In this document: piece after piece, positions 5,056 through 24,472 of the stretch
Layout of the letters: the number at the start of each line of letters is the position of its first letter
How positions within the stretch are numbered: position 1 is the stretch's first letter
From: Syntrophobacterales bacterium GWC2_56_13
GTDB lineage: Bacteria > Desulfobacterota > Syntrophia > Syntrophales > UBA5619
Assembly (NCBI GenBank): GCA_001830835.1
Contig: MICJ01000037.1
Span: 112-35,953 of the forward strand
Reading direction: 5' to 3'
DNA length: 35,842 bases
Translations under genes and position numbers: made by a program
The notes under the pieces: generated by a model
Told to the model about the DNA's origin: nothing
Databases searched by the model: none
Seen by the model: the letters and a program-made list of their open reading frames with translations, nothing else

Positions 5056-6075
5056 ATGAAAAAGAAAGACTATTTGCAGATTCCGGTCCGGCACATCGAC
5101 ATCACTTCGTTCGACGCCACGCCCATTATCGAGGCAATGAAAGGAATGTCTTTCACCGCCCGGGACCTGGCGACGGCCGCCGGAATCTACGACCGGATGC
5201 TCTCCGAAAAGAAGTGCGGCATCATCCTGACTATCGCGGGCAGCACCAGCGCCGCGGGCTGCATGCAGATCTACGTGGAGATGGTGAAGAACAACATGGT
5301 GGATGCCATCGTCGCTACGGGGGCAACGGTGGTGGACATGGATTTCTTCGAGGCCCTGGGCTTCCGCCATTATCAGGGAACGCCGTTCGTCGACGACCGG
5401 GAGCTTCGGCGCCTTTACATCGACCGGATCTACGATACCTACATCGATGAGGAGGACCTCCAGGTCTGCGACCGGACAATCCAAGCCATCGCCGACGGAC
5501 TCCCCCCCCGCCTCTATTCCTCGCGGGAGTTCATCCGGGAGATGGGACGCTACCTGACCGGACACGCAGTGAAGAAGGATTCCCTCGTCCAGGCGGCTTT
5601 CGAGCGCGATGTGCCGATCTTCTGCCCCGCCTTCTCGGACAGCAGCGCCGGCTTCGGTCTCGTCCTCCACCAGGAGAAGCACCCGCAGGCGCACGTCTCC
5701 ATCGACTCGGTGAAGGACTTCCGGGAACTGACCCAGGTCAAGATCAAGGCGGGGATGACAGGCCTCCTGATGATCGGCGGCGGCGCGCCGAAGAACTTCG
5801 CCCAGGACACGGTCGTCTGCGCCGAGATCCTCGGGAAAAAAGTTCCGATGCACAAGTACGCAGTCCAGATCACGGTGGCCGACGTCCGCGACGGCGCCTG
5901 CTCCAGCTCCACGTTGAAGGAGGCCAATTCCTGGGGGAAGGTGGACAGCAGCTGCGAGCAGATGGTCTATGCGGAGGCCACCTCCGTACTCCCGCTTCTG
6001 GCGAGCTACGCCTGGCACCGGGGGAACTGGAAGAAACGGAAACCCCGGCGGTTCACGAAGCTCTTCAAGGACTGA
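5056..6075 (+). CDS. Deoxyhypusine synthase-family protein (possible homospermidine synthase)
   Basis: A 339-residue member of the deoxyhypusine synthase fold, which transfers the aminobutyl group of spermidine via an NAD-dependent Lys-imine intermediate. Family landmarks are GIILTIAGSTSAAG (NAD site), MVDAIVATGATVVDMDF, VPIFCPAFSDSSAGFG, GLLMIGGGAPKNF and the catalytic segment EANSWGKV, whose Lys295 corresponds to the active-site lysine of eukaryotic DHS. The start is fixed by AGGGGAGG 5 bases before the ATG. Bacteria normally lack the eIF5A substrate. Known alternatives for DHS-like proteins are homospermidine synthesis or unknown polyamine transfer, and the sequence alone does not choose. 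It appears monocistronic behind its own promoter. The family call is firm; the reaction is not. Confidence 0.88.
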   Translation: MKKKDYLQIPVRHIDITSFDATPIIEAMKGMSFTARDLATAAGIYDRMLSEKKCGIILTIAGSTSAAGCMQIYVEMVKNNMVDAIVATGATVVDMDFFEALGFRHYQGTPFVDDRELRRLYIDRIYDTYIDEEDLQVCDRTIQAIADGLPPRLYSSREFIREMGRYLTGHAVKKDSLVQAAFERDVPIFCPAFSDSSAGFGLVLHQEKHPQAHVSIDSVKDFRELTQVKIKAGMTGLLMIGGGAPKNFAQDTVVCAEILGKKVPMHKYAVQITVADVRDGACSSSTLKEANSWGKVDSSCEQMVYAEATSVLPLLASYAWHRGNWKKRKPRRFTKLFKD

Positions 6076-10616: not shown

Positions 10617-11144
10617 ATGCACGTTGTCAGAAACTGGCTTATCAGAGGTGTCTTAGTGATCGCGCTGACCATAGCCCCGGCCGACAGTCGCGCCCAAAAC
10701 ATGCCGGATTCCATAGACCTGGATTCTCTGGTACAATTTTACGAGAAAGTGAGCTTCGACCATGCCAAGCATATCGGGCTCAGCAAAGATTGCTCGGTGT
10801 GCCATCACCATACGACCGGGACACCGACGGAAGACGCCAATTGTATTAGATGTCATAAAAACAGCGCCGCGACCGCTGTTGTGGCCTGCACGGCCTGCCA
10901 CTCCGCCCAGCCTTTCTCTGCCGAAACCATAAAGAAAAACAAAAGCAACGTAAAAAGCTACCACAAAGACATGCCGGGGCTCAAGGGCGCCTATCATCAG
11001 AGTTGCGGGGGATGCCACGCCAGGGATGGCGGGCCGACCGGGTGCCAGGATTGTCACCCGCGGAAAAAATCGGGCGATGCATTTTATCATGCCGGTGAGT
11101 ACGCACCCAAAACCCCAAAGAACGGGAAAAGCCGCGGCCGTTGA
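10617..11144 (+). CDS. Periplasmic pentaheme c-type cytochrome (Cbc/Hmc-type subunit)
   Basis: A 175-residue protein with an N-terminal Sec signal (cleavage plausible after SRA, near residue 26) and five CxxCH motifs at 59-63, 76-80, 91-95, 130-134 and 143-147. The remaining His residues (FDHAKHIG, HHH, SYHKD, AYH) can supply distal ligands, as in class III cytochromes. It should accept electrons in the periplasm from the downstream FeS/NrfD pair. The layout cytochrome - ferredoxin-like - NrfD matches Geobacter Cbc4-type and Desulfovibrio Hmc/Nrf-type menaquinol oxidoreductases. A Lys/Arg-rich tail (KTPKNGKSRGR) ends the protein. I cannot say which named complex it belongs to. Confidence 0.88.
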   Translation: MHVVRNWLIRGVLVIALTIAPADSRAQNMPDSIDLDSLVQFYEKVSFDHAKHIGLSKDCSVCHHHTTGTPTEDANCIRCHKNSAATAVVACTACHSAQPFSAETIKKNKSNVKSYHKDMPGLKGAYHQSCGGCHARDGGPTGCQDCHPRKKSGDAFYHAGEYAPKTPKNGKSRGR

Positions 11145-11206
11145 TGAAACATGACCGGGGCACGCATTCCTGTAAATTCCAGTTCGACGTTTAAGGAGAG
11201 TTAAAC

Positions 11207-12127
11207 ATGAAACGGAGAGATTTCCTAAAGGCTTGGATGATATGTGGAGCTTCGACTACGTTTGGCATCACAAGAAACGCCTGGGGGGGCGCCTCTTTTG
11301 AAGGGTATCCCGAAAGAATGGGGGTTCTGGTGGACCTGACCCGCTGCGTCGGCTGCCGCAGCTGCGAGGCTGCATGCAACAAGGAACAACAGCTTCCCGC
11401 CCCGTCGGCGCCATTTGACGATCTATCGGTATTCGACAGAAAACGTCGCCCCACTGAAAAGGCCTACACCGTCATCAACCGCTACGAGACTACAAAAGCG
11501 GGCGGCCCTGTCTATCGCAAGATCCAGTGCAATCATTGCAACGAGCCGGGCTGCCTCTCTTCCTGTCTTGTCAATGCCTACACCAAAACCCAAGAGGGGG
11601 CGGTGATCTACAATCCCAAGGTCTGCATCGGGTGCCGTGCCTGCATGGTGGCCTGTCCTTTCAACATCCCGGGCTACAGTTATTCCAGCGCCTTCAATCC
11701 TCTGGTCAAGAAATGCGTATTCTGCTACGACACCCGCCTGAAAAACGGCAAGTCCCCCGCCTGCGTGGAGATCTGCCCGCAGGAAACCCTTACGTTCGGC
11801 CATCTGAACGACCTGATCAAGATCGGTCACGAGAGGATCCGGGAAATGCCGGACAAATATATCGATCACATTTACGGCGAAAAGGAGGTGGGGGGGACCG
11901 GTTGGATATATCTCTCCGGCGTGCCGTTCGACAAGGTCGGCTTCGATACGACCCTGGGGAACGAACCGATCATCTCCAATGTCAAGGAGTTTCTCGGCCT
12001 CATACCCATGGTGCTTGCCATCTGGCCGGCACTTTTTACCGGCTTTCATCTGCTGTCGACCCGCAATAATAATGACCCTTCCAAGCAAGGAGATTCCCAT
12101 TCTTATCGAGAGGATGCCAAACCATGA
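11207..12127 (+). CDS. Tat-exported 4x[4Fe-4S] ferredoxin-like electron transfer subunit (HybA/HmcB type)
   Basis: A 306-residue iron-sulfur protein. The N-terminus MKRRDFLK is a twin-arginine signal. Sixteen Cys in four clusters are visible: 47/50/53/57, 108/111/116/120, 140/143/146/150 and 170/173/186/190, the arrangement of DmsB/NrfC/HybA/HmcB proteins. A hydrophobic helix near 270-292 (IPMVLAIWPALFTGFHLL) anchors it on the periplasmic face, as in HybA and HmcB. It should relay electrons between the NrfD-like quinol site and the pentaheme cytochrome. The stop overlaps the next start in ATGA at 12124, so it is translationally coupled to the NrfD-like subunit. A GGAG site precedes the ATG. 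Confidence 0.92.
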   Translation: MKRRDFLKAWMICGASTTFGITRNAWGGASFEGYPERMGVLVDLTRCVGCRSCEAACNKEQQLPAPSAPFDDLSVFDRKRRPTEKAYTVINRYETTKAGGPVYRKIQCNHCNEPGCLSSCLVNAYTKTQEGAVIYNPKVCIGCRACMVACPFNIPGYSYSSAFNPLVKKCVFCYDTRLKNGKSPACVEICPQETLTFGHLNDLIKIGHERIREMPDKYIDHIYGEKEVGGTGWIYLSGVPFDKVGFDTTLGNEPIISNVKEFLGLIPMVLAIWPALFTGFHLLSTRNNNDPSKQGDSHSYREDAKP

Positions 12128-13434
12128 ACAAATTAAAAGCGCAAGAGGTAACAATCGTCGACTCCCCTTACAAGGATCCGGGAAAGACCAAATGGAGCGT
12201 GCAAGAAAAGTTGCTGCTCGGTCTGACCCCACAACAGTATGTTGCCCAAGCCCTGCGCAATCCCTTCAACTGGCTTCTGGCCATCATCTTTGCCATAGGG
12301 CTCCCTATTATCGCTGGCCGATTTCTATTCGGCCTCTCCTGGGTCACTGACAGCTCTTACGACTACCCGTGGGGGCTTTTCTTAGGATTTGGCCTGTTCA
12401 CCTTGGTTCCTCTCTCTTCGTCTGGTTTTCAACTCGGCACAGCCGTGGAACTCTTCGGACGTCACGATCTCAAACCGATCGAACGTCTCGCCCTGTTGAA
12501 CGGCCTGCTGGGCTATTTTTTCGCCGTCTGTTACCTGTTGGTCGACCTGGGCCAGCCCTGGCGACTCCCCTATCCGATGCTGATCGCGTTCGGTCCCGCC
12601 GCGGTCCTGTTTCTGGTCGCCTGGCATGTGGCTACCTATCTTTCCGTACAGATCGCGGAGGTGTCGGTGTCCTTTTTTGAATGGATCGGTTTCCCAATGG
12701 GCAAACAGGCGGTGCGTAAGATCACCCTCGGTCTCACCGTGGCGGGAATCATCCTCTCCACCCTCCACCAAGGGGCGTTGGGAGCTCTCTTCACTTATGC
12801 CCCCGGCAAGGTTCACCCTCTATGGTACTCGGCCTCGTTTCAGTGGCTCCACTTCTTCGTTTCATCCATGCCGGCCGGGCTTTGCATGGTGATCGTGGTC
12901 GGCAGCATCGTCAAAAAGACGATGGCATGGCGCTGTGACGACAACTTCATGAAGAATGTAGACAAGCTCTCGATCACCCTCGCCAGGGGCGCCTGCATGG
13001 GGTTGGCCACCTATCTCACGATCAAACTGATCGGCGTGGCCCATGACAACAAGTGGGAATACCTGGCCAGCGGTTGGGGGCTGTGGTACCTGTTTGAAAT
13101 CGGCGTCGGCGTCATCCTGCCGCTTGTACTCATCTCTTTCGCCATTAGGAACAACAAGATCGGGCTGGTCCGCTTCAGCGCGCTTCTCACCATCTTCGGC
13201 CTGGTGCTCAACCGGTTCAATACCGCCCTGATCACCTTTAACTGGAAACTGGGTGAATGGTTTATCCCCCACTGGCGTGAGGTAATGATCACCGTCACCA
13301 TCTTCGCCATCTATATAATGGTCTACCGTTTCATCCTCTACCGTCTACCGATCCTCTATACATGGAAGACAGCCGATGAACCCGTGCACGTCACGGAACC
13401 GATAAAAGAATCGGCCACCTATGTGACAGGATAG
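12124..13434 (+). CDS. NrfD/HybB/HmcC-type integral membrane quinol oxidoreductase subunit
   Basis: A 436-residue polytopic protein of the NrfD superfamily with about ten hydrophobic segments. The family hallmark (YPWGLFLGFGLFTLVPLSSS) comes after TM1, followed by LDLKPIERLALLNG-like and YLLVDLGQPWR segments typical of HybB/HmcC. These subunits bind (mena)quinone from the periplasmic side without heme. An N-terminal ~50 residues are cytosolic. Together with the preceding FeS and cytochrome subunits it forms a complete quinol:cytochrome c oxidoreductase module. It is the last gene of the operon; I see no convincing terminator in the 140 bp before the convergent regulator gene. The electron transfer direction cannot be read from the sequence. 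Confidence 0.92.
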   Translation: MNKLKAQEVTIVDSPYKDPGKTKWSVQEKLLLGLTPQQYVAQALRNPFNWLLAIIFAIGLPIIAGRFLFGLSWVTDSSYDYPWGLFLGFGLFTLVPLSSSGFQLGTAVELFGRHDLKPIERLALLNGLLGYFFAVCYLLVDLGQPWRLPYPMLIAFGPAAVLFLVAWHVATYLSVQIAEVSVSFFEWIGFPMGKQAVRKITLGLTVAGIILSTLHQGALGALFTYAPGKVHPLWYSASFQWLHFFVSSMPAGLCMVIVVGSIVKKTMAWRCDDNFMKNVDKLSITLARGACMGLATYLTIKLIGVAHDNKWEYLASGWGLWYLFEIGVGVILPLVLISFAIRNNKIGLVRFSALLTIFGLVLNRFNTALITFNWKLGEWFIPHWREVMITVTIFAIYIMVYRFILYRLPILYTWKTADEPVHVTEPIKESATYVTG

Positions 13435-15226: not shown

Positions 15227-15276
15227 AATGCGCTCGCTGACGGATTCAATAATTGAGAATAATAGCACAATAAGAA

Positions 15277-15305
15277 TTGACTATTTGCCTGCATTTTCTT
15301 ATAAT
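15277..15305 (+). promoter_or_regulatory. Sigma-70-type promoter of the nonaheme cytochrome
   Basis: TTGACT (15277-15282), 17-bp spacer, TATAAT (15300-15305): 11/12 consensus positions at ideal spacing. Start near 15312, leaving a ~130-nt untranslated leader. The gene therefore seems not to depend on the sigma-54 system next door. Confidence 0.75.
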
Positions 15306-15440
15306 ACAACGATCATGCGCGATGCGGGGCCAGTTTGCTGCTCACGCCTGTTTCGATGTTCCCGAAAAAGCACACGAAATAGTCAATGCCGGACAGCGTC
15401 GCAGATCGGATATTGTTGTTATTGTTTTCTGGAGGCAATC

Positions 15441-16205
15441 ATGAAGCAGCGGTACGCGTTTTTCATCCTGATCTTGACGATTTTAACCGGCTCCTTCGGT
15501 CATGCAATTGACATCAAAGATGTCACCTTTAAGACAGCCAATTTCGGCAAGGTGATATTTAGCCACAACCAGCACTTCAGACAAGAAGGCATTAAAAATA
15601 ACTGCAAGACCTGCCATAATGCCATTTTCAACCTCAGAGGCAAGACCCGTTACACCATGGCAGATATGGGAAAAGGCAAGTCCTGCGGCGCCTGCCACAA
15701 CGGCAAACGGGCCTTCGATCTCAATGATTGCATCCAATGTCACAAGGTTGCGAATGTAACTATTAAAGTAAAAGAAACGGGACCGGTGACCTTCAGTCAC
15801 AAGAAGCATCTCAGCGCTTATAAATGCGCCGTCTGCCACCCCAAGATCTACGATATGGCTGCAAAAAAGCCGGCCACCATGGCCCAGATGGAAAAAGGGA
15901 AGTCCTGCGGCGCCTGTCATAACGGCAAAGACGCCTTTAAGACTGAAGAATGTATAAAGTGTCATCCCGTCAAGGATGTAGATTTCAAGCTGAAGGATTC
16001 GGGGGACGTCAAATTCAGCCACGAATTTCACACGGGCATGTACAAGTGCGGCGATTGCCACGTCAAGCTCTATCTTCCCTCTGCGAAGAATAAGAGAATG
16101 ACGATGGCGGAGATGGAAGCGGCCAAATCATGCGGCGCCTGTCATAACGAAGGCAAAGAAGCCTTTACCGTAAAGGAAAATTGTGACCGCTGCCACAAGA
16201 TGTAG
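15441..16205 (+). CDS. Periplasmic nonaheme cytochrome made of three c7-type triheme modules
   Basis: A 254-residue exported protein: signal peptide 1-22 (cleaved after GHA), then three repeats of ~75 residues, each with three CxxCH motifs. Each repeat follows the same plan: VxFSHxxHF/T ... C..CH ... MxxGKSCGACHNGK.AF ... C..CHK. The nine motifs begin at about residues 55, 82, 97, 129, 157, 171, 203, 231 and 248. This is the triheme c7 (PpcA-like, nanowire-type) domain strung together, as in the modular dodecaheme cytochromes of Geobacter. It should ferry electrons across the periplasm from the inner-membrane quinol oxidoreductases nearby. The ATG at 15441 follows GGAGG by 5 bases. No cell-wall or lipid anchor is visible. 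Confidence 0.92.
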   Translation: MKQRYAFFILILTILTGSFGHAIDIKDVTFKTANFGKVIFSHNQHFRQEGIKNNCKTCHNAIFNLRGKTRYTMADMGKGKSCGACHNGKRAFDLNDCIQCHKVANVTIKVKETGPVTFSHKKHLSAYKCAVCHPKIYDMAAKKPATMAQMEKGKSCGACHNGKDAFKTEECIKCHPVKDVDFKLKDSGDVKFSHEFHTGMYKCGDCHVKLYLPSAKNKRMTMAEMEAAKSCGACHNEGKEAFTVKENCDRCHKM

Positions 16206-16337
16206 CGCAGCGCGGGAGAGAGATATCTGATGTCAAGGCAACAAATGCATGTAAAAAATAATTTGACAAAAGGGATTTTATTATTAACTTAAGTAAAATT
16301 TGACGGACCGGAAGCAGGTCCAGAAAAGGAGATAAAC

Positions 16338-16655
16338 ATGTTTTCCGTATCTGAAAAAGCAAGCGAGATGATCAAGGAATTTCTTAAGAATCGTTCAGCG
16401 GCCGCCTCCATCCGGGTCCTCATGCAGGAGGGCGGCTGAGCGGGGCCCTCTCTGGGCATGGCTCTGGATGAGTCAACAACGAACGATGAGGTATTCGAGG
16501 ATGGGGGGGTCAAATTCCTGGTCGAAAAGACCCTTTTTGAAAAGGTCAAACCAATCGCAGTCGATTTTATCACCACCCCGCGGGGGGGCGGATTCAAGCT
16601 TGCCTCCAGCCTGAGTAAGGAAAGCGCCTGCGGCTCCTCATGCAGCAGCTGCTGA
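16338..16655 (+). CDS. HesB/IscA-like selenoprotein (in-frame UGA = selenocysteine)
   Basis: Read through the UGA at 16437-16439, the frame gives 105 residues of a HesB/IscA-like (A-type iron-sulfur carrier-related) protein: MFSVSEKASEMIKEFL, then IRVLMQEGG-U-AGPSLGMALDE, then VDFITTPRGGGFKL, and a Cys-rich end CGSSCSSC. Sec34 takes the place of the first conserved Cys of the IscA motif (GGCSG). This matches the HesB-like selenoprotein family known from Geobacter, Syntrophobacter and relatives. A hairpin follows the UGA at once. AGGAGA precedes the ATG by 6 bases and a strong terminator follows. A naive gene finder will report two fragments or only the 65-residue C-terminal part. Its exact role in iron-sulfur or redox chemistry is not established. 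Confidence 0.88.
16438..16464 (+). promoter_or_regulatory. Predicted bacterial SECIS element
   Basis: Directly after the first base of the UGA, GAGC (16438-16441) pairs with GCTC (16461-16464) and GCCC with GGGC inside, around a TCTCT loop with a GGG/ATG internal loop. Bacterial SECIS hairpins sit within ~10-30 nt of the UGA, in the coding region, as here. Pairing was done by eye. Confidence 0.6.
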
Positions 16656-16663
16656 GATCATGC

Positions 16664-16699
16664 CCCGGAGGCCCATGCGGGTCTCCGGGTTTTTTCTTT
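16664..16699 (+). terminator. Rho-independent terminator of the selenoprotein gene
   Basis: CCCGGAG-G-CCC-ATGC-GGG-T-CTCCGGG followed by TTTTTTCTTT: a ten-pair GC-rich stem with one bulged pair and a U-tract, starting 8 bases after the stop codon. Confidence 0.92.
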
Positions 16700-16739
16700 G
16701 CGCGCTACCGGCAAAAAAGCGCGTATCTCCTTTAATCCA

Positions 16740-17720
16740 ATGACGGAAAATTCAATTTCCTCCGACCGGAACCGCGCCGACGCCCTGATCCGGGATGGTC
16801 GTTGCGAAGAGGCCATCGAGATCTATCGGAGGCTGACGGAAGCCCGCCCGGAGGAGGATTCCCACCTCCTTGCCCTGGCCTGGGCGCTCCACGACAGCGG
16901 GAGGCCGGAGGAGGCCACCCGCTGTTTCGAACGCCTCTTCGAGAAGGAACTCGCCCGCAGGCTCTTCACCGGCTTTGCCTATGACGAACTGGTCCGGATC
17001 TACCGGGAAGGGAAAGAGTGGGAAAGCCTTATTTCGGTCTGTGAGCGGGCCGCGGACGTACAGCCGGAGGATGCCGGCCTGCTGCGAACACTCGGCGAGG
17101 CCTGTCTTGCGGCGGGGAAGGCAGAGAGGGCTCTGCACGTCTTTGAGAGGCTCACCGCCCTTGAACCGGATTCTCCGGATCACTGGTGTTCCCTGGGCGA
17201 CGCGTGGCTGGCGGCGAGCGACCCCGGTAACGCCGATGTCGCCTATTTACGGGCCGCGGAGATCGAACCTGCGGATGCACCGGTTTTCTTCAGCCGGCTG
17301 GCAGTCGGCTGTCTCCGAGCCGGCCATCTGGAAAAGGCGCGGGCGGCCTTTGCGCGGTGTCTGGCTGCGCGTCCCGCTGAACCTGTTTTTTGGATAGGTC
17401 TCGGCGATGTCCTGATCCGTATGGGAGAACCGGAAGCGGCGGTGGACGCCTATGGCCGTGCGGCATCTCTCAATCCCGCGACTGCGGGAAGCTGTTACTG
17501 CCGCCTCGGCAATCTCCTTACCAGGGAGGGCTTCCATCCCTTGGCGTCGGAGGCGTTTACAAAAGCCGTTGCCGCCGAACCGGGAAACCCCCGCTTCCTC
17601 CTTCACCTGGCTGCATCATACACCGCCCGGGACCTGGCCGACCTCGCGGCTGCTGCGCTCCGCAGGGTGGAGGCTCTGACCGGTAGCGCGTTAGGGAAGC
17701 CCCGCCCGGCGGCCGGGTAG
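16740..17720 (+). CDS. Tetratricopeptide repeat protein
   Basis: About 326 residues of consecutive TPR helix pairs covering almost the whole chain. The repeats are recognisable from A..L...G...EAI..Y.RL..A.P spacing: RCEEAIEIYRRLTEARPE, RPEEATRCFERLF, KAERALHVFERLTALEPDS, HLEKARAAFARCLAARPA, EPEAAVDAYGRAASLNPA, and further copies. No signal peptide or membrane segment, so probably a cytosolic scaffold. The open frame extends back into the terminator of the preceding gene; the ATG at 16740 is the first sensible start, though its ribosome site is poor. GC content returns to the high value of the flanks here. It converges with the receiver/pilus genes and shows no clear link to the selenoprotein. 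Confidence 0.85.
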   Translation: MTENSISSDRNRADALIRDGRCEEAIEIYRRLTEARPEEDSHLLALAWALHDSGRPEEATRCFERLFEKELARRLFTGFAYDELVRIYREGKEWESLISVCERAADVQPEDAGLLRTLGEACLAAGKAERALHVFERLTALEPDSPDHWCSLGDAWLAASDPGNADVAYLRAAEIEPADAPVFFSRLAVGCLRAGHLEKARAAFARCLAARPAEPVFWIGLGDVLIRMGEPEAAVDAYGRAASLNPATAGSCYCRLGNLLTREGFHPLASEAFTKAVAAEPGNPRFLLHLAASYTARDLADLAAAALRRVEALTGSALGKPRPAAG

Positions 17721-17755
17721 TTTCCCGGCGACACCGCCGACCGTAAAAGAAGGGC

Positions 17756-18271
17756 TCAGGCCTTTCCTATCTTCTGCAGCGTCTCCCGGAAAACATGGTA
17801 AAAGGCGGCGTTGTCGCTCACGCCCTGCTTGACGATCTTTCCCGTTTCATCGATATTCTTGAGATTGAGGACGAGATTGACGCTCCGGTTGAAGGCGGCC
17901 ATGTTGTCCAGCGTCCGGTATTGTCCGCTGACCAAGACAACAAAGATTCTCCGCCGCGTCGTCGTGGCCAGGCTTTCCAGATACATCAGGACGTCGTTTG
18001 CCGCCGGATTCTCCGTGTCGAATAGTTCGTCCAGGACCACGACATCGTAAACGTGGAACCGCATGTACTTGATAGCTTCCTTGGCAGTTGCAGGTTCCGT
18101 GACCTGATAGTTTAGCCCCCGGAGGGCGCCGACGATTTTCTCCCGGACGGCCGGATCGGGTTCGCACACCAGGGCTGTCGCGCTCCCCTCTCCCACGAAG
18201 TCGAACGGCCTATCCGCAGCGTCGTACCCCTCCGCTGCCACCTCATTCAATAGCGTCTTATTTTCTTCCAT
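17756..18271 (-). CDS. Receiver-domain protein linked to pilus ATPases
   Basis: A 171-residue protein with a single receiver-like domain from about residue 30: TALVCEPDPAVREKIVGAL (E37/D39 acidic pocket), DVVVLDELF with phospho-Asp candidate D81, FVVLVSGQ with S115, and LNLKNI with K138. Residues 1-29 are unstructured-looking, and the C-terminal ~30 residues form a helix. Unlike the protein at 9564, the key residues are present. It lies 12 bases downstream of a PilU/PilT-like ATPase gene in the same orientation, which suggests a role in regulating twitching or pilus retraction. No output domain is present. Confidence 0.72.
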   Translation of the reverse strand: MEENKTLLNEVAAEGYDAADRPFDFVGEGSATALVCEPDPAVREKIVGALRGLNYQVTEPATAKEAIKYMRFHVYDVVVLDELFDTENPAANDVLMYLESLATTTRRRIFVVLVSGQYRTLDNMAAFNRSVNLVLNLKNIDETGKIVKQGVSDNAAFYHVFRETLQKIGKA

Positions 18272-18283
18272 GACACGCCTCCC

Positions 18284-19459
18284 TTACCAAGGCCTCTTCG
18301 GTTTTCCGTAATCATTATCCACCTCGAGCTTGCCGAGGTCCGTCGTGGACTGCCCCCGCGCGCTCTTCACCGTGTCGATGCCTCGGCCGACGATCCCCTT
18401 GTTGGAGGCGTAGGCCTTCCCGGTCTCCTCGCTGATCAACCCCTGCTTGAAAAGCTCGATGATGTAGTCGTCAAAGGTGATCATCCCGAAGGCCTTCCCC
18501 GCCTGGATGATCTCATAGAAGGTCTTTCCCTCCGATTCTCCATGGAGGATGGCATCCTTCACCCGGAGGTTAGCCCCCATGACCTCGAAGGCCGCCACGC
18601 GTCCCCCCCCTTCCTTGGGGAGGAGGCGCTGGCAGACGATCCAGCGGACCGTATCGGCCAGCCGGATCCGGACCTGATTCTCCTCCTCGGTGGAGAACAT
18701 GCCTAAGATGCGGTTGATGGTCTGCCCCGCATCCACCGTATGGAGCGTGCTCAAGACAAGATGGCCCGTCTCCGCTGCGGACAGGCCGATCTCCACTGTC
18801 TCCCGGTCCCGCATCTCGCCGACGAGGATAATCTTCGGCGCCTGACGTAGCGCGGCGCGGAGCCCGCTTGCGAAGGTGTCAAAATCACTACCCATTTCCC
18901 GCTGGTTGAAGGTGGCCTTCCGGTGGGAATGGGAATATTCCACCGGATCCTCGAGCGTGACGACATGGACCGACTTCTTGTCGTTGACCTCATTGAGGAG
19001 CGCCGCGAGGGACGTCGATTTCCCGCTCCCCGTGGCGCCGGTCACTAAGATGATCCCGTTCTTCTCCTCGGCCATTTTGCGGAAGGCCTCGGGAAGGTTC
19101 ATATCCTCGAAGGACGGGATCTTGGACTCCAGTTTTCTCAGGACGATGGAGTAGTTGCCCCGCTGGGAGAAGATGTTCACCCGGAAGCGGGCCCTCCCCG
19201 ACAGTTCGTACGAGGAATCGCACGACCCCTGGGACAGAAGGTTCTCCGTCAGCCTCCGGTCCTGATTGATCAGGTTCAGGGCGAACGTCTCCGTCTGGAA
19301 GGGGGTCAGTTTCTCGAAGGGCAGGTCCATCTTCACGCCGATGAGCTGGCCCGCGCTCTCCACCTGAAAGGGCCTCCCCACCGTGATGTTCAGGTCCGAT
19401 ACATTCTTATGGGCATCGAGCATCTTACCCAGGATATAATCGACCTCCTGAATTCTCAT
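18284..19459 (-). CDS. PilT/PilU-type retraction ATPase (second copy)
   Basis: A 391-residue hexameric secretion-type ATPase. An N-terminal PAS-like domain (~1-120) precedes the RecA-like core: Walker A GATGSGKST (141-149), Asp box VTLEDPVEY, Walker B ILVGEMRDRET and His box TGHLVLSTLHT. The AIRNLIRE-type motif typical of PilT is absent (here KDAILHGESEGK), and the C-terminus is longer than in PilT, so PilU is the better comparison. It would act at the base of a type IV pilus on the cytoplasmic side. GGAGGTGAACG precedes the ATG. It follows the PilT gene with a 38-bp gap, in one operon with the receiver gene downstream. Confidence 0.9.
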   Translation of the reverse strand: MRIQEVDYILGKMLDAHKNVSDLNITVGRPFQVESAGQLIGVKMDLPFEKLTPFQTETFALNLINQDRRLTENLLSQGSCDSSYELSGRARFRVNIFSQRGNYSIVLRKLESKIPSFEDMNLPEAFRKMAEEKNGIILVTGATGSGKSTSLAALLNEVNDKKSVHVVTLEDPVEYSHSHRKATFNQREMGSDFDTFASGLRAALRQAPKIILVGEMRDRETVEIGLSAAETGHLVLSTLHTVDAGQTINRILGMFSTEEENQVRIRLADTVRWIVCQRLLPKEGGGRVAAFEVMGANLRVKDAILHGESEGKTFYEIIQAGKAFGMITFDDYIIELFKQGLISEETGKAYASNKGIVGRGIDTVKSARGQSTTDLGKLEVDNDYGKPKRPW

Positions 19460-19497
19460 CGTTCACCTCCAGTAAAAAATAGAAAAACCGGCGGCCG

Positions 19498-20580
19498 CTA
19501 CACCTCGGTGAAATCCGTCGGCGGAGTCTTCAGTAACTGCCGGAACCGCTGTTTGTCGTTCGCCTTCATGTAGGCCTCGTCCGGACCGATCCACCCTTTG
19601 TCGAGGAGCCCCTGGATCGCATCATCGAGAAGCATCATGCCGTATTTCTTCCCCGTCTGGATCATGGAGGGGAGCTGGAAGGTCTTCGATTCGCGGATCA
19701 GGTTGCGCACCGCGGAGTTGGCGATCAGGATCTCCAAGGCGGCGCAGCGCCCCTTCCTGTCGACCCGCTTGAAGAGGACCTGGGCGATTACCGCCCTGAT
19801 CCCGTCGGCGAGGGTGGAGCGGATCTGCATCTGCTCGCCGGCAGGGAAGACCTCGATGATCCGGTCCACGGTCTTGGCGGCGCTCGTCGTGTGGAGCGTG
19901 CCGAAGACGAGATGGCCCGTCGAGGCCGCTTCGACGGCGAGCGAGATCGTCTCCAGATCGCGGAGCTCCCCGACGAGGATGATGTCGGGGTCCTCGCGCA
20001 GGGCGCCGCGCAGCGCCGCCGTGAAGGATTTCGTATGCCGGCCGACTTCCCGGTGATTCACGATGCAACTCTGGCTTGCGTGGACGAATTCGACCGGATC
20101 CTCGATCGTGATAATGTGGTCCTTCCGGGTCCGGTTCGCCTCGTCAATGATCGCCGCGAGCGTGGTGGATTTGCCGCTTCCCGTCGGTCCGGTGACCAGG
20201 ACCAGACCCCGGGGTAGGGAGGCCAGTTTGGGGATGACCGGCGGGAAGCCTAATTCAGCGCAGGTGACGATCTTGTTCGGAATCTCCCGGAACACCGCCC
20301 CGCAGCCGAACTGCTGCTCGAAGAAGTTGGCGCGGTAACGGGCAAGTCCCGGAATCTCATAGGCAAAATCGACATCACCTGTCTCTTCGAACTGCTTGAC
20401 CTTGTGTTCAGGGGCGATCTCATAGATCATCGCCTTCAGGCCGTCGTTGGTTAGGACGTCGAACTTGATCCGCTCCAGGTCGCCCCGGAGCCGGAGCGCC
20501 GGCTGCTGACCGGAGACGAGGTGCAGGTCCGACGCCCCCTGGTCGTGCATCAGCTGGAAGAATGCATCGATTTTTGCCAT
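19498..20580 (-). CDS. pilT: Type IV pilus retraction ATPase PilT
   Basis: A 360-residue PilT: MAKIDAFFQLMHDQGASDLH start, Walker A GPTGSGKST (131-139), Asp box ITIEDPVEFVH, Walker B ILVGELRDLET (201-211), His box TGHLVFGTLHT (221-231) and the C-terminal AVRNLIRESK signature that distinguishes PilT from PilB. It powers disassembly of the pilus during twitching. The ATG at 20580 has a perfect AAGGAGG site; the open frame beyond it has none. It is the first gene of a three-gene minus-strand operon driven by a strong sigma-70 promoter at 20724-20752, with tandem repeats immediately upstream of the -35. No pilin or assembly genes lie in the window. Confidence 0.95.
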   Translation of the reverse strand: MAKIDAFFQLMHDQGASDLHLVSGQQPALRLRGDLERIKFDVLTNDGLKAMIYEIAPEHKVKQFEETGDVDFAYEIPGLARYRANFFEQQFGCGAVFREIPNKIVTCAELGFPPVIPKLASLPRGLVLVTGPTGSGKSTTLAAIIDEANRTRKDHIITIEDPVEFVHASQSCIVNHREVGRHTKSFTAALRGALREDPDIILVGELRDLETISLAVEAASTGHLVFGTLHTTSAAKTVDRIIEVFPAGEQMQIRSTLADGIRAVIAQVLFKRVDRKGRCAALEILIANSAVRNLIRESKTFQLPSMIQTGKKYGMMLLDDAIQGLLDKGWIGPDEAYMKANDKQRFRQLLKTPPTDFTEV

Positions 20581-20723
20581 GAATGACCTCCTTGGGGATA
20601 TTTGCGATTTGACTCTTTCGGGAACACTGTTCTTCTCCCGTCTTGAGGGATATTTCAGCGTAACACGGACGTACCGCAAGAACAGCCGGATCGTTTCGGA
20701 TATCCGGCATCGCGATTGCCGAG

Positions 20724-20847: not shown

Positions 20848-20957
20848 ACTTTTGCCATAGTGCAGCTATATCAAATTCACCGCACAGGAACTGCTCCTAA
20901 CACAACATGTTTTGCAATGCCATGTTTCTTAAATTTCTGTTTTGCAGGAGGATCAGC

Positions 20958-22808
20958 ATGTTGAAAATGTTTTCCCGCATTGCGTCCGTGATCTTGCTTG
21001 TCCTGCTGTCTGCTTACCCCCTGTGGGCTGAGCGGGGCATGGCCATTGATCCGGCCATCTGCCTCGGCTGCCACGGCGACAAGATCTCCGCCGCTTCTTT
21101 TGTCGCTTCCGTTCACGGTAAAAATGGCTGTAACAGCTGCCATATCCAGCTTACCGACCTTTCCAGACACGTGAAAGGTGAAATCAAAATGGAGAAGGTC
21201 AGGTGTGAACGCTGCCACAAAAGGGAAAATGCCGAGCATTATGCCAGTGTGCATATCCAGAAGGATGTACAATGCGCCGATTGCCACACCGATATACACA
21301 CGCACCGTTACTGGAAAAAGGATAAACGCATTGTCGTCGCCAAGTGCATCCAGTGCCATGACCACGAGGCCGTTTACCGGCAATCCATTCACGGCAAAGC
21401 GGTGGCGGCAGGCAATCAGGATTCCGCGGCCTGTCATGATTGCCATAATCTTCATGATGTCAAGCCGATGAATGACCCAAAGTTCCATACCGACCGGGTA
21501 TTCCATACCAAAGTCTGCCTGAGATGCCACAGTGACGAGGAGATGATGAAGAGAAACAGTGTCTTCACTGTGGCAACCCAGACATACATGAACAGCTATC
21601 ACGGGAAAAACTACCGGCTCGGTTATCCGGAAAAGGTCGCCGGTTGCGCCGATTGTCATACGGCCCATGCAGTGCTGAAAGCGTCGGATCCCCGCTCCAC
21701 CGTCAATCCCGCGCATCTTGTGGCAACGTGCAAACAGTGCCATAAGCACGCCACTTCAATGTTTACGAAATTCTACGCCCACGGGGAACATACGGACAGG
21801 GGAAAATACCCGCTGCTTTACTGGACATTTGTCAGCATGATCGGCCTCCTGTGGAGCACCTTCGCCGTCTTCTGGGTGCATACGATCCTGTGGATGTACC
21901 GGGGCTTTGTGGAAAACCGGGAAAAAGCGGCGCTTCTTGCGGAAGGGGCCATCAAACCCGTGCCCGACGGCTTCAAGCAGTACCGCCGTTTCAAAGCCCG
22001 CCACATCATCCTGCATATCCTGGTTATCGTCAGTTTTCTTGGTCTTGCCCTGACCGGCTTGCCGCTTAAATTCAGCGATCAGGAACTGTCAAAGCTTCTG
22101 ATGGCGCTGTACGGCGGCACCGCCAACGCCGCTCTGATCCACAGAATATGCGCCGTGATTACCTTTGGTTACTTCCTTTCGGCTATTGCCATGAGCATCC
22201 ATTTCCTTTTCATCAGGAAGGATATACGGGGGAACTGGCTGGAAAGACTGCTCGGTCCCGACTCCCTCTGTCCCAATCCCCGGGATGTCAGGGATATCAC
22301 CGGGATGATCCGCTGGTTCTTTTTCAAGGGGCCGAAACCCACGTTCGAGCGCTGGAGTTACTGGGAGAAGTTCGATTTTCTGGCGGTCTTCTGGGGCATG
22401 TTCGCCATCGGCGGCTCCGGTCTGATGCTCTGGTTCCCGGAGTTTTTCGGCGGCTTCCTGCCCGGCTGGATGTTCAACGTGGCGACCATCGTCCATTCCG
22501 ACGAGGCCCTGCTTGCCACGGGATTCATCTTTACGGTGCATTTCTTCAATACCCACTTCCGCCCCGAGAAATTTCCCATGGATTTTGTCATTTTTAACGG
22601 TCAGATATCGAAACATGAGTTTATAGAAGAACGCCGCGATCAGTGGCAGCGCTACGAACGGGAAGGGATCACCGAGCAGATCAGGGTTAAGAAGCGAAGC
22701 GGCGTTTTCTTCGACTTCTTCTTCAAGGGATTCGGCTTTTTGGCCCTTTTCCTGGGGATTGCCCTGCTGTTCATGATGCTTTATACCTTTTTGGCCGCAC
22801 CGCATTAG
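20958..22808 (+). CDS. CbcL-like nonaheme c / cytochrome b fusion quinol oxidoreductase
   Basis: A 616-residue protein. Residues 1-25 form a signal peptide or signal anchor. A periplasmic domain to ~285 carries nine CxxCH motifs (starting near residues 35, 58, 83, 106, 130, 159, 187, 230 and 258). A membrane domain of the HydC/FdnI/b561 type follows (segments near 289-312, 349-370, 392-418, 470-492 and 590-612), with His candidates for two b hemes. This nine-heme plus cytochrome-b layout is that of Geobacter CbcL, an inner-membrane menaquinol dehydrogenase needed for reduction of low-potential extracellular acceptors. The ATG at 20958 follows GGAGG; the longer open frame has no support. An ImcH-like gene follows 140 bp downstream. 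The family match is strong; the physiological role is inferred. Confidence 0.88.
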   Translation: MLKMFSRIASVILLVLLSAYPLWAERGMAIDPAICLGCHGDKISAASFVASVHGKNGCNSCHIQLTDLSRHVKGEIKMEKVRCERCHKRENAEHYASVHIQKDVQCADCHTDIHTHRYWKKDKRIVVAKCIQCHDHEAVYRQSIHGKAVAAGNQDSAACHDCHNLHDVKPMNDPKFHTDRVFHTKVCLRCHSDEEMMKRNSVFTVATQTYMNSYHGKNYRLGYPEKVAGCADCHTAHAVLKASDPRSTVNPAHLVATCKQCHKHATSMFTKFYAHGEHTDRGKYPLLYWTFVSMIGLLWSTFAVFWVHTILWMYRGFVENREKAALLAEGAIKPVPDGFKQYRRFKARHIILHILVIVSFLGLALTGLPLKFSDQELSKLLMALYGGTANAALIHRICAVITFGYFLSAIAMSIHFLFIRKDIRGNWLERLLGPDSLCPNPRDVRDITGMIRWFFFKGPKPTFERWSYWEKFDFLAVFWGMFAIGGSGLMLWFPEFFGGFLPGWMFNVATIVHSDEALLATGFIFTVHFFNTHFRPEKFPMDFVIFNGQISKHEFIEERRDQWQRYEREGITEQIRVKKRSGVFFDFFFKGFGFLALFLGIALLFMMLYTFLAAPH

Positions 22809-22845
22809 ACGCTCCGTTGGGTATGAAACACAGCCTCTTTTTAAT

Positions 22846-22873
22846 TTGACAAAACGAGAGGTAGTGTTATACG
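22846..22873 (+). promoter_or_regulatory. Candidate promoter of the ImcH-like gene
   Basis: TTGACA (22846-22851), 16-bp spacer, TATACG (22868-22873). The -35 is perfect and the -10 is 4/6. It would allow expression independent of the CbcL-like gene. Confidence 0.5.
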
Positions 22874-22948
22874 TGAATCGGCGTTCAGCAGCCGCTCAAA
22901 GCGTTACAAGTTACTATAAATACTGCATAAAAGAAGCGAGGAGGAGAC

Positions 22949-24472
22949 ATGCCTGAGAATAGAAACAACATCATGGGGTATTTCTTCAATATGATAAGCC
23001 TCATTGGAATGATACTGGCCGTGGTGGCCGCCGGTCTCATCATTGTCTTGCTTTCCGTGGAGCTGATTACCGGCGTGGAGAGCCCCTACCTGGGAATCAT
23101 GGTTTATTTTATTTTTCCCGCCATGCTGATCCTGGGCCTGCTCCTGGTGCCCATAGGCGCTTACCGTGTGAGAAAGCAGCGCCGCCTGGCAAGACCGGAC
23201 GTCATTCCGCCCTATCCGGATATGGACTTGAATGACCGCCTCAAGCGACGGTTGTTTGTCTTTTTCATCTTCGGCACCGTCATCTTTGTTCTCATTATTT
23301 CCATCGCGGCAGTCAAGGGTTACCATTTTACCGAGTCTGACGAATTTTGCGGAAAGCTTTGCCACGTGGTCATGGCCCCGGAACACACTGCCTGGAGCAA
23401 ATCTCCCCACGCCAGGGTTCGCTGTGTGGAGTGCCACATCGGACCGGGGGCAAAATGGTATGTCAAGGCCAAGATTTCCGGCCTGAAACAGATCTATGCC
23501 GTGCTGGCTCACACCTATGCGATTCCCATCGAAACTCCCGTCGTGAATCTCCGTCCTGCGCGCGATATCTGCGAGCGCTGCCACTGGCCGGAAAAGTTTT
23601 ACTCGGGTCGTCAGAGGGTATATTACCATTACGCACCCGATGAAAAGAACACGCCCCGGGAGATCAACATGCTGATCAATATCGGCGGCACCCCGAAAAG
23701 CCCGACGGCGACCGGCATTCACTGGCATATAGGCAGCGAGGTCTATTACATCGCCAGGGATAACAAACGTCTCGACATCCCCTATGTCGCCGTCAAGGAT
23801 AAAAACGGCAAGATCATCGAGTATAACGATGAGGATAGTCCGCTTTCCAAGGAGGAGATCGCCAAAGGGGAAAAGCGCCTCATGGACTGCATCGACTGTC
23901 ACAATCGTCCGACCCATATTTACCGTTCACCCGGTCAGGAGATGGACGAAAACTTTGTCTCCGGCCATATCGATCCCACCCTGCCCTTCATCAAGAAGAT
24001 CGCCGTGGAACTCCTTACCAGGCCTTACAAGACCGCAGAAGAGGGCAGGTCTGCTATTGCCGGCGGCATAGAGGAATTCTATGCCAAGAATCACCCGACG
24101 GCGGCCAGTGATAAGGCCGCTGCCATCAGGCAGGCCATCGAGATGGTGCAGGACATTTATGACCGAAACTTTTTCCCGAAGATGAAAGTGTACTGGAATA
24201 CCTACCCCGACCATATCGGTCATTTCTATACGCCCGGCTGTTTCCGTTGTCACGGGGGGAAGCACAAGTCAGAAGACGGCAAGGTCATTTCCAAGGATTG
24301 TGACCTCTGCCATACCGTTCTTGGCCAGAAACAGGAAAACATACGGCAGGGGGCGAAGGTGAATAGTTTTGTCCACCCGACGGATATCGGGGACAGCATG
24401 ATCGCACTGAATTGCAGCGAATGCCATTCAGCCGGCGGTGAAGATGTGCCGGGTGGAGGCAAGGGCAAGTAG
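22949..24472 (+). CDS. ImcH-like NapC/NirT-family heptaheme quinol dehydrogenase
   Basis: A 507-residue inner-membrane cytochrome. Three hydrophobic segments (about 15-40, 47-71 and 102-122) precede a periplasmic domain with seven heme motifs: CGKLCH (CX3CH, 134-139), CVECH (159-163), CERCH (208-212), then CIDCH, CFRCH, CDLCH and CSECH. The first two hemes and the SPHARVRCVECHIGPG stretch are typical of NapC/NirT quinol dehydrogenases. Three TM helices plus seven hemes is the layout of Geobacter ImcH, which oxidises menaquinol when high-potential metal acceptors are used. The start ATG at 22949 follows GAGGAGG. It lies next to the CbcL-like gene, the alternative low-potential enzyme. Other NapC-family roles cannot be excluded. 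Confidence 0.88.
   Translation: MPENRNNIMGYFFNMISLIGMILAVVAAGLIIVLLSVELITGVESPYLGIMVYFIFPAMLILGLLLVPIGAYRVRKQRRLARPDVIPPYPDMDLNDRLKRRLFVFFIFGTVIFVLIISIAAVKGYHFTESDEFCGKLCHVVMAPEHTAWSKSPHARVRCVECHIGPGAKWYVKAKISGLKQIYAVLAHTYAIPIETPVVNLRPARDICERCHWPEKFYSGRQRVYYHYAPDEKNTPREINMLINIGGTPKSPTATGIHWHIGSEVYYIARDNKRLDIPYVAVKDKNGKIIEYNDEDSPLSKEEIAKGEKRLMDCIDCHNRPTHIYRSPGQEMDENFVSGHIDPTLPFIKKIAVELLTRPYKTAEEGRSAIAGGIEEFYAKNHPTAASDKAAAIRQAIEMVQDIYDRNFFPKMKVYWNTYPDHIGHFYTPGCFRCHGGKHKSEDGKVISKDCDLCHTVLGQKQENIRQGAKVNSFVHPTDIGDSMIALNCSECHSAGGEDVPGGGKGK

Follow-up and report, generated by a model that had tools for sequence, protein, structure and literature searches.

Gene layout and surroundings

The window, i.e. 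the whole stretch of 35,842 nucleotides analyzed here from Syntrophobacterales bacterium GWC2_56_13, contains a reading frame that opens with an ATG, passes an in-frame TGA and continues for 71 further codons to a closing TGA at 16653–16655 (Table 1). Taking the first TGA as an amino acid, translation gave a product that begins with MFSVSEKASEMIKEFLKNRSAAASIRVLMQEGGUAGPSLGMALDES and ends in ACGSSCSSC. The coordinates of the gene and of its internal TGA, and the length of 105 residues, had been given exactly by an earlier sequence-only reading, which proposed a HesB-like selenoprotein at this position. The flanking signals it described were also recovered: a ribosome binding site precedes the ATG, with a purine-rich site of similar kind in the homologues read, and a strong terminator (11-pair stem, folding z = -4.3) with a T-rich tail follows the gene.

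Table 1. Features of the predicted selenoprotein gene and its transcript (positions in the window).
Feature	Position	Strand	Basis and remarks
Ribosome binding site AAGGAG	16326..16331	+	sequence; 7–12 bases upstream of the ATG
Predicted HesB/IscA-like selenoprotein CDS	16338..16655	+	105 aa plus stop; NF038090 match and pN/pS
In-frame TGA, inferred selenocysteine codon	16437..16439	+	residue 34, motif GGUAGP
Smaller conserved hairpin GCCC/GGGC, between UGA and SECIS	16445..16457	+	93% of cells paired; consensus fold
Putative bacterial SECIS hairpin UGGCUC-UGGAU-GAGUCA	16459..16475	+	pairing conservation, compensatory changes, synonymous constraint; stem 16459–16464/16470–16475 (6 pairs), loop 16465–16469 (UGGAU)
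C-terminal Cys cluster CGSSCSSC	16629..16652	+	residues 98, 102 and 105; translation
Intrinsic terminator stem-loop	16664..16689	+	T-rich tail to about 16699

A gene for a TPR protein (16698–17717) lies downstream in the same direction, as in most Syntrophales loci. It is followed on the opposite strand by a receiver-domain protein and then by PilT-like ATPases. This order of HesB-like selenoprotein, TPR, receiver-domain and PilT-like genes (16698–20676 downstream of the selenoprotein gene in the window) was kept in many Syntrophales loci (L041–L056, L064), and the window locus has two PilT-like genes in tandem. The upstream neighbor encodes a cytochrome c7-type multihaem protein. Multihaem c-type cytochromes are clustered in the window together with Fe-S and NrfD-like membrane genes (10617–13431, 15228–16202 and 20907–24472), and this cluster probably serves as a module for respiration or for electron transfer to the outside of the cell. 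Elsewhere in the window, a deoxyhypusine synthase-family protein is encoded at 5056–6072 (PF01916, 314.6 bits), in a bacterium.

Homology, conservation of the TGA and selection

Under the standard code TGA terminates translation; were this one a genuine stop, or the result of a sequencing or assembly error, the gene would be a pseudogene or two fragments. Joined open frames of this kind are common by chance: by frame count only, 27 ATG-started frames of the window have a single TGA preceded by at least 30 codons and followed by at least 60, because the DNA is GC-rich. The open frame across the TGA is therefore by itself not beyond chance, and the decisive evidence for the predicted gene is its homology.

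In profile searches the read-through product, with the TGA taken as Sec or Cys, matched the NCBIfam model NF038090 IscA_HesB_Se (IscA/HesB family protein) with 112.4 bits at a cut-off of 85 (105.1 in the six-frame search). Residues 1–103 aligned to positions 1–100 of the 101 profile positions, and nothing substantial sets the protein apart from other members, among which the spacing of the C-terminal cysteines varies. As this model is named for the family, the gene is in principle not hidden from current annotation, contrary to the sequence-only reading. The TIGR01911 model HesB_rel_seleno, under which a 2026 review places the HesB-like selenoproteins (PMC13188914), scored 38.9 bits and did not reach its curated cut-off of 66.35. 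Pfam Fe-S_biosyn scored 22.7, under its cut-off of 26.3, and the equivalog cut-offs for IscA, SufA and ErpA were not reached by the protein in the profile search.

Sequence matches in the PDB were structures of E. coli IscA (yfhF) with E values of about 5e-10. Homology to the A-type Fe-S carriers IscA, SufA and ErpA (PDB 1s98, 1r94 and 1nwb) extends over residues 3–101 and includes the first ligand position: in the alignment the TGA-encoded residue 34 falls on E. coli IscA Cys35, the first conserved cysteine, as had been proposed from the sequence. In contrast to these carriers, the window protein would have Sec in place of the first Cys and has a C-terminal CxxxCxxC instead of CxC. Cys98 aligns with Cys101 of IscA, the position of IscA Cys99 is occupied by serine, and Cys102 and Cys105 are extra. 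The UxGP motif of HesB-like selenoproteins is present as UAGP (16437–16448). Sec in this motif and interchange of Sec with Cys are shared with the HesB-like selenoproteins of the literature, although the present species is not among the named carriers (PMC1794560, PMC13188914).

Homologues with 49–85% identity were found in GTDB genomes of Syntrophaceae/Syntrophales and in other deltaproteobacterial MAGs, nearly all with the same TGA. A class-level survey of 155 genomes gave 140 matches over the cut-off. Counted by rows, 125 of the 140 had exactly one in-frame TGA, at the same codon, and 15 had none; the seven TGA-less copies that were read carry TGC or TGT at this position. In the homologues, the conserved TGA or Cys codon is followed by conserved coding sequence; a true stop at this codon, which would have spoken against the sequence-only reading, was not what they showed. 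Across 28 UGA homologues pN/pS was 0.30 upstream of the UGA and 0.40 downstream of it, so both halves of the gene are under protein-level constraint (purifying selection). The earlier claim of coding on both sides of the TGA thus holds by homology and selection, but not by the open frame considered alone. A pseudogene or true stop was rejected because the TGA is conserved and interchanges with Cys. Purifying selection on both sides and the Sec machinery of the genome (see below) likewise speak against a stop or an error, which retains a negligible probability.

Structure and constraint of the RNA following the UGA

In codons 35–47, the synonymous codon was shared in 0.77 of same-residue pairs, compared to 0.34 (sd 0.016) when codons were shuffled within genes. 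From codon 48 onward the values were 0.49 and 0.41, which gauges the excess due to mere relatedness. Mean pS among the 28 homologues was 0.32 in codons 35–47 and 0.68–0.69 on either side. A separate constraint acts on the RNA that follows the UGA.

In the putative SECIS hairpin 96.7% of cells were paired, with a double change from C-G to U-A (GGUUC...GAACC) and alternation of G-U and G-C pairs. Three more distant copies have the paired variant UGUCUC...GAGGCA or GAGGCU. At least five of the six pairs and the GG of the loop were kept in all 45 UGA homologues examined. The bacterial SECIS model requires a loop of 3–9 nt with a G in the first two positions, a stem of 4–16 bp, a loop position 16–37 nt past the UGA and an energy of at most -7.5 kcal/mol (PMC13188914). 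With a 5 nt loop, G in second position, 6 bp and a distance of 25 nt after the UGA, the geometry of the hairpin is within this model (PMC13188914), but its energy of -7.3 kcal/mol falls marginally short. Folding of the window gene's sequence alone preferred a competing hairpin (-15.7 versus -7.3 kcal/mol), and the fold after the UGA was no more stable than those of shuffled sequences (z = -0.9 to -0.2). The hairpin is therefore judged to matter because it is conserved, not because of thermodynamic stability. A GC-rich hairpin immediately next to the UGA, the lowest-energy fold of the window gene's own sequence, was also considered as SECIS; synonymous constraint and compensatory changes favored 16459–16475. 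A hairpin after the UGA, as noted in the sequence-only reading, exists, but its stability does not exceed that of shuffled sequences, and conservation places the SECIS further downstream, at 16459–16475. The SECIS folding it had suggested as a check came out favorable in geometry and borderline in energy. An Rfam search of the window at gathering thresholds gave no SECIS match and only a tRNA-Ala.

Several Cys-coding copies (L021 and L037, also L067, L071 and L084) still have a largely intact SECIS-like hairpin, which points to a conversion from Sec to Cys. In keeping the hairpin, L021 and L037 resemble the Cys-containing HesB-like protein of Desulfitobacterium hafniense, for which a fossil SECIS has been described (PMC1794560). 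Two genomes of the class carry a Cys copy as well as a Sec copy (L066/L067, with G040:C9 and G041:C6).

Predicted selenocysteine decoding and possible function of the protein

The Sec-decoding trait is complete in the genome: selA (569 bits), full-length selB (375.6 bits), selC, i.e. a tRNA-Sec (74.6 bits) with the anticodon TCA (UCA), and selD (397 bits) were all found, including the genes whose absence would have spoken against the sequence-only reading. Within the family, selB was over the cut-off in 17 of 21 genomes. The selD gene has an in-frame TGA of its own in GAG*ACK (L019), which we take to be the usual Sec site of SelD; SelD is thus a predicted selenoprotein of this genome as well.

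Read-through of UGA is known in general, and the codon might be read as a residue other than Sec, e.g. as Trp by code reassignment or by near-cognate read-through. The window gene itself and many homologues end in TGA (16653 in the window), hence UGA is a working stop here. Code reassignment was rejected on this ground and on the interchange of residue 34 with Cys in homologues, and a Sec-specific tRNA and SelB are present; decoding as another residue is accordingly very improbable. Taken together, the sequence comparisons support the selenoprotein interpretation of the earlier reading, and the gene almost certainly encodes a HesB/IscA-like selenoprotein in which UGA 16437 is read as Sec.

As a strong inference, the ribosome would decode this UGA by means of the organism's own SelB and tRNA-Sec, with Sec insertion guided by the putative SECIS hairpin, the loop of which is located 25 nt downstream. 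Sec34 would replace the first cluster- or iron-ligating cysteine of IscA, and Cys98, Cys102 and Cys105 near the C-terminus are the likely remaining ligands. Its probable task is to bind Fe-S clusters or iron and hand them on, or to perform a redox variant of that job. A carrier role appears reasonably likely. We hold it with less confidence than the identity as a selenoprotein, because CxxxCxxC stands where IscA has its canonical C-terminal CxC. This replacement, with a spacing that varies across the family, would also fit a genuine selenoprotein with a redox role (oxidoreductase or metal/metalloid handling) instead of Fe-S or iron delivery, and a redox role is assumed for the majority of selenoproteins (PMC13188914). 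The fold family, Sec at the position of IscA Cys35 and the finding that the window protein is the sole IscA-family protein found in the genome argue against a purely redox function, which we regard as possible but rather unlikely. The genome also encodes a NifU/IscU scaffold domain; SufB/D was not found. Absences are no proof in this assembly, as it is 90.8% complete and about 9% is missing.

HesB-like selenoproteins were listed in surveys of 2005–2006 (PMC1242214, PMC1794560) and occur in Syntrophus aciditrophicus, a named carrier from the order of the present organism, and in Syntrophobacter fumaroxidans (PMC1794560, PMC13188914). This kind of selenoprotein is therefore already known, and the known picture of selenoproteins is unchanged by the gene. 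The family gains a well-supported member whose putative SECIS is clearly conserved, and the gene supports the prediction that this organism decodes UGA as Sec. In an IscA-like protein, Sec may serve as cluster ligand or in redox chemistry. A more speculative scenario, to which we assign little weight, is that a strict anaerobe uses a selenoprotein as the only A-type Fe-S carrier found, such that some Fe-S maturation would be selenium-dependent, possibly with the downstream TPR protein as partner. If this is true, the selenium dependence of Fe-S maturation and the TPR partnership would be new, the selenoprotein itself being known.
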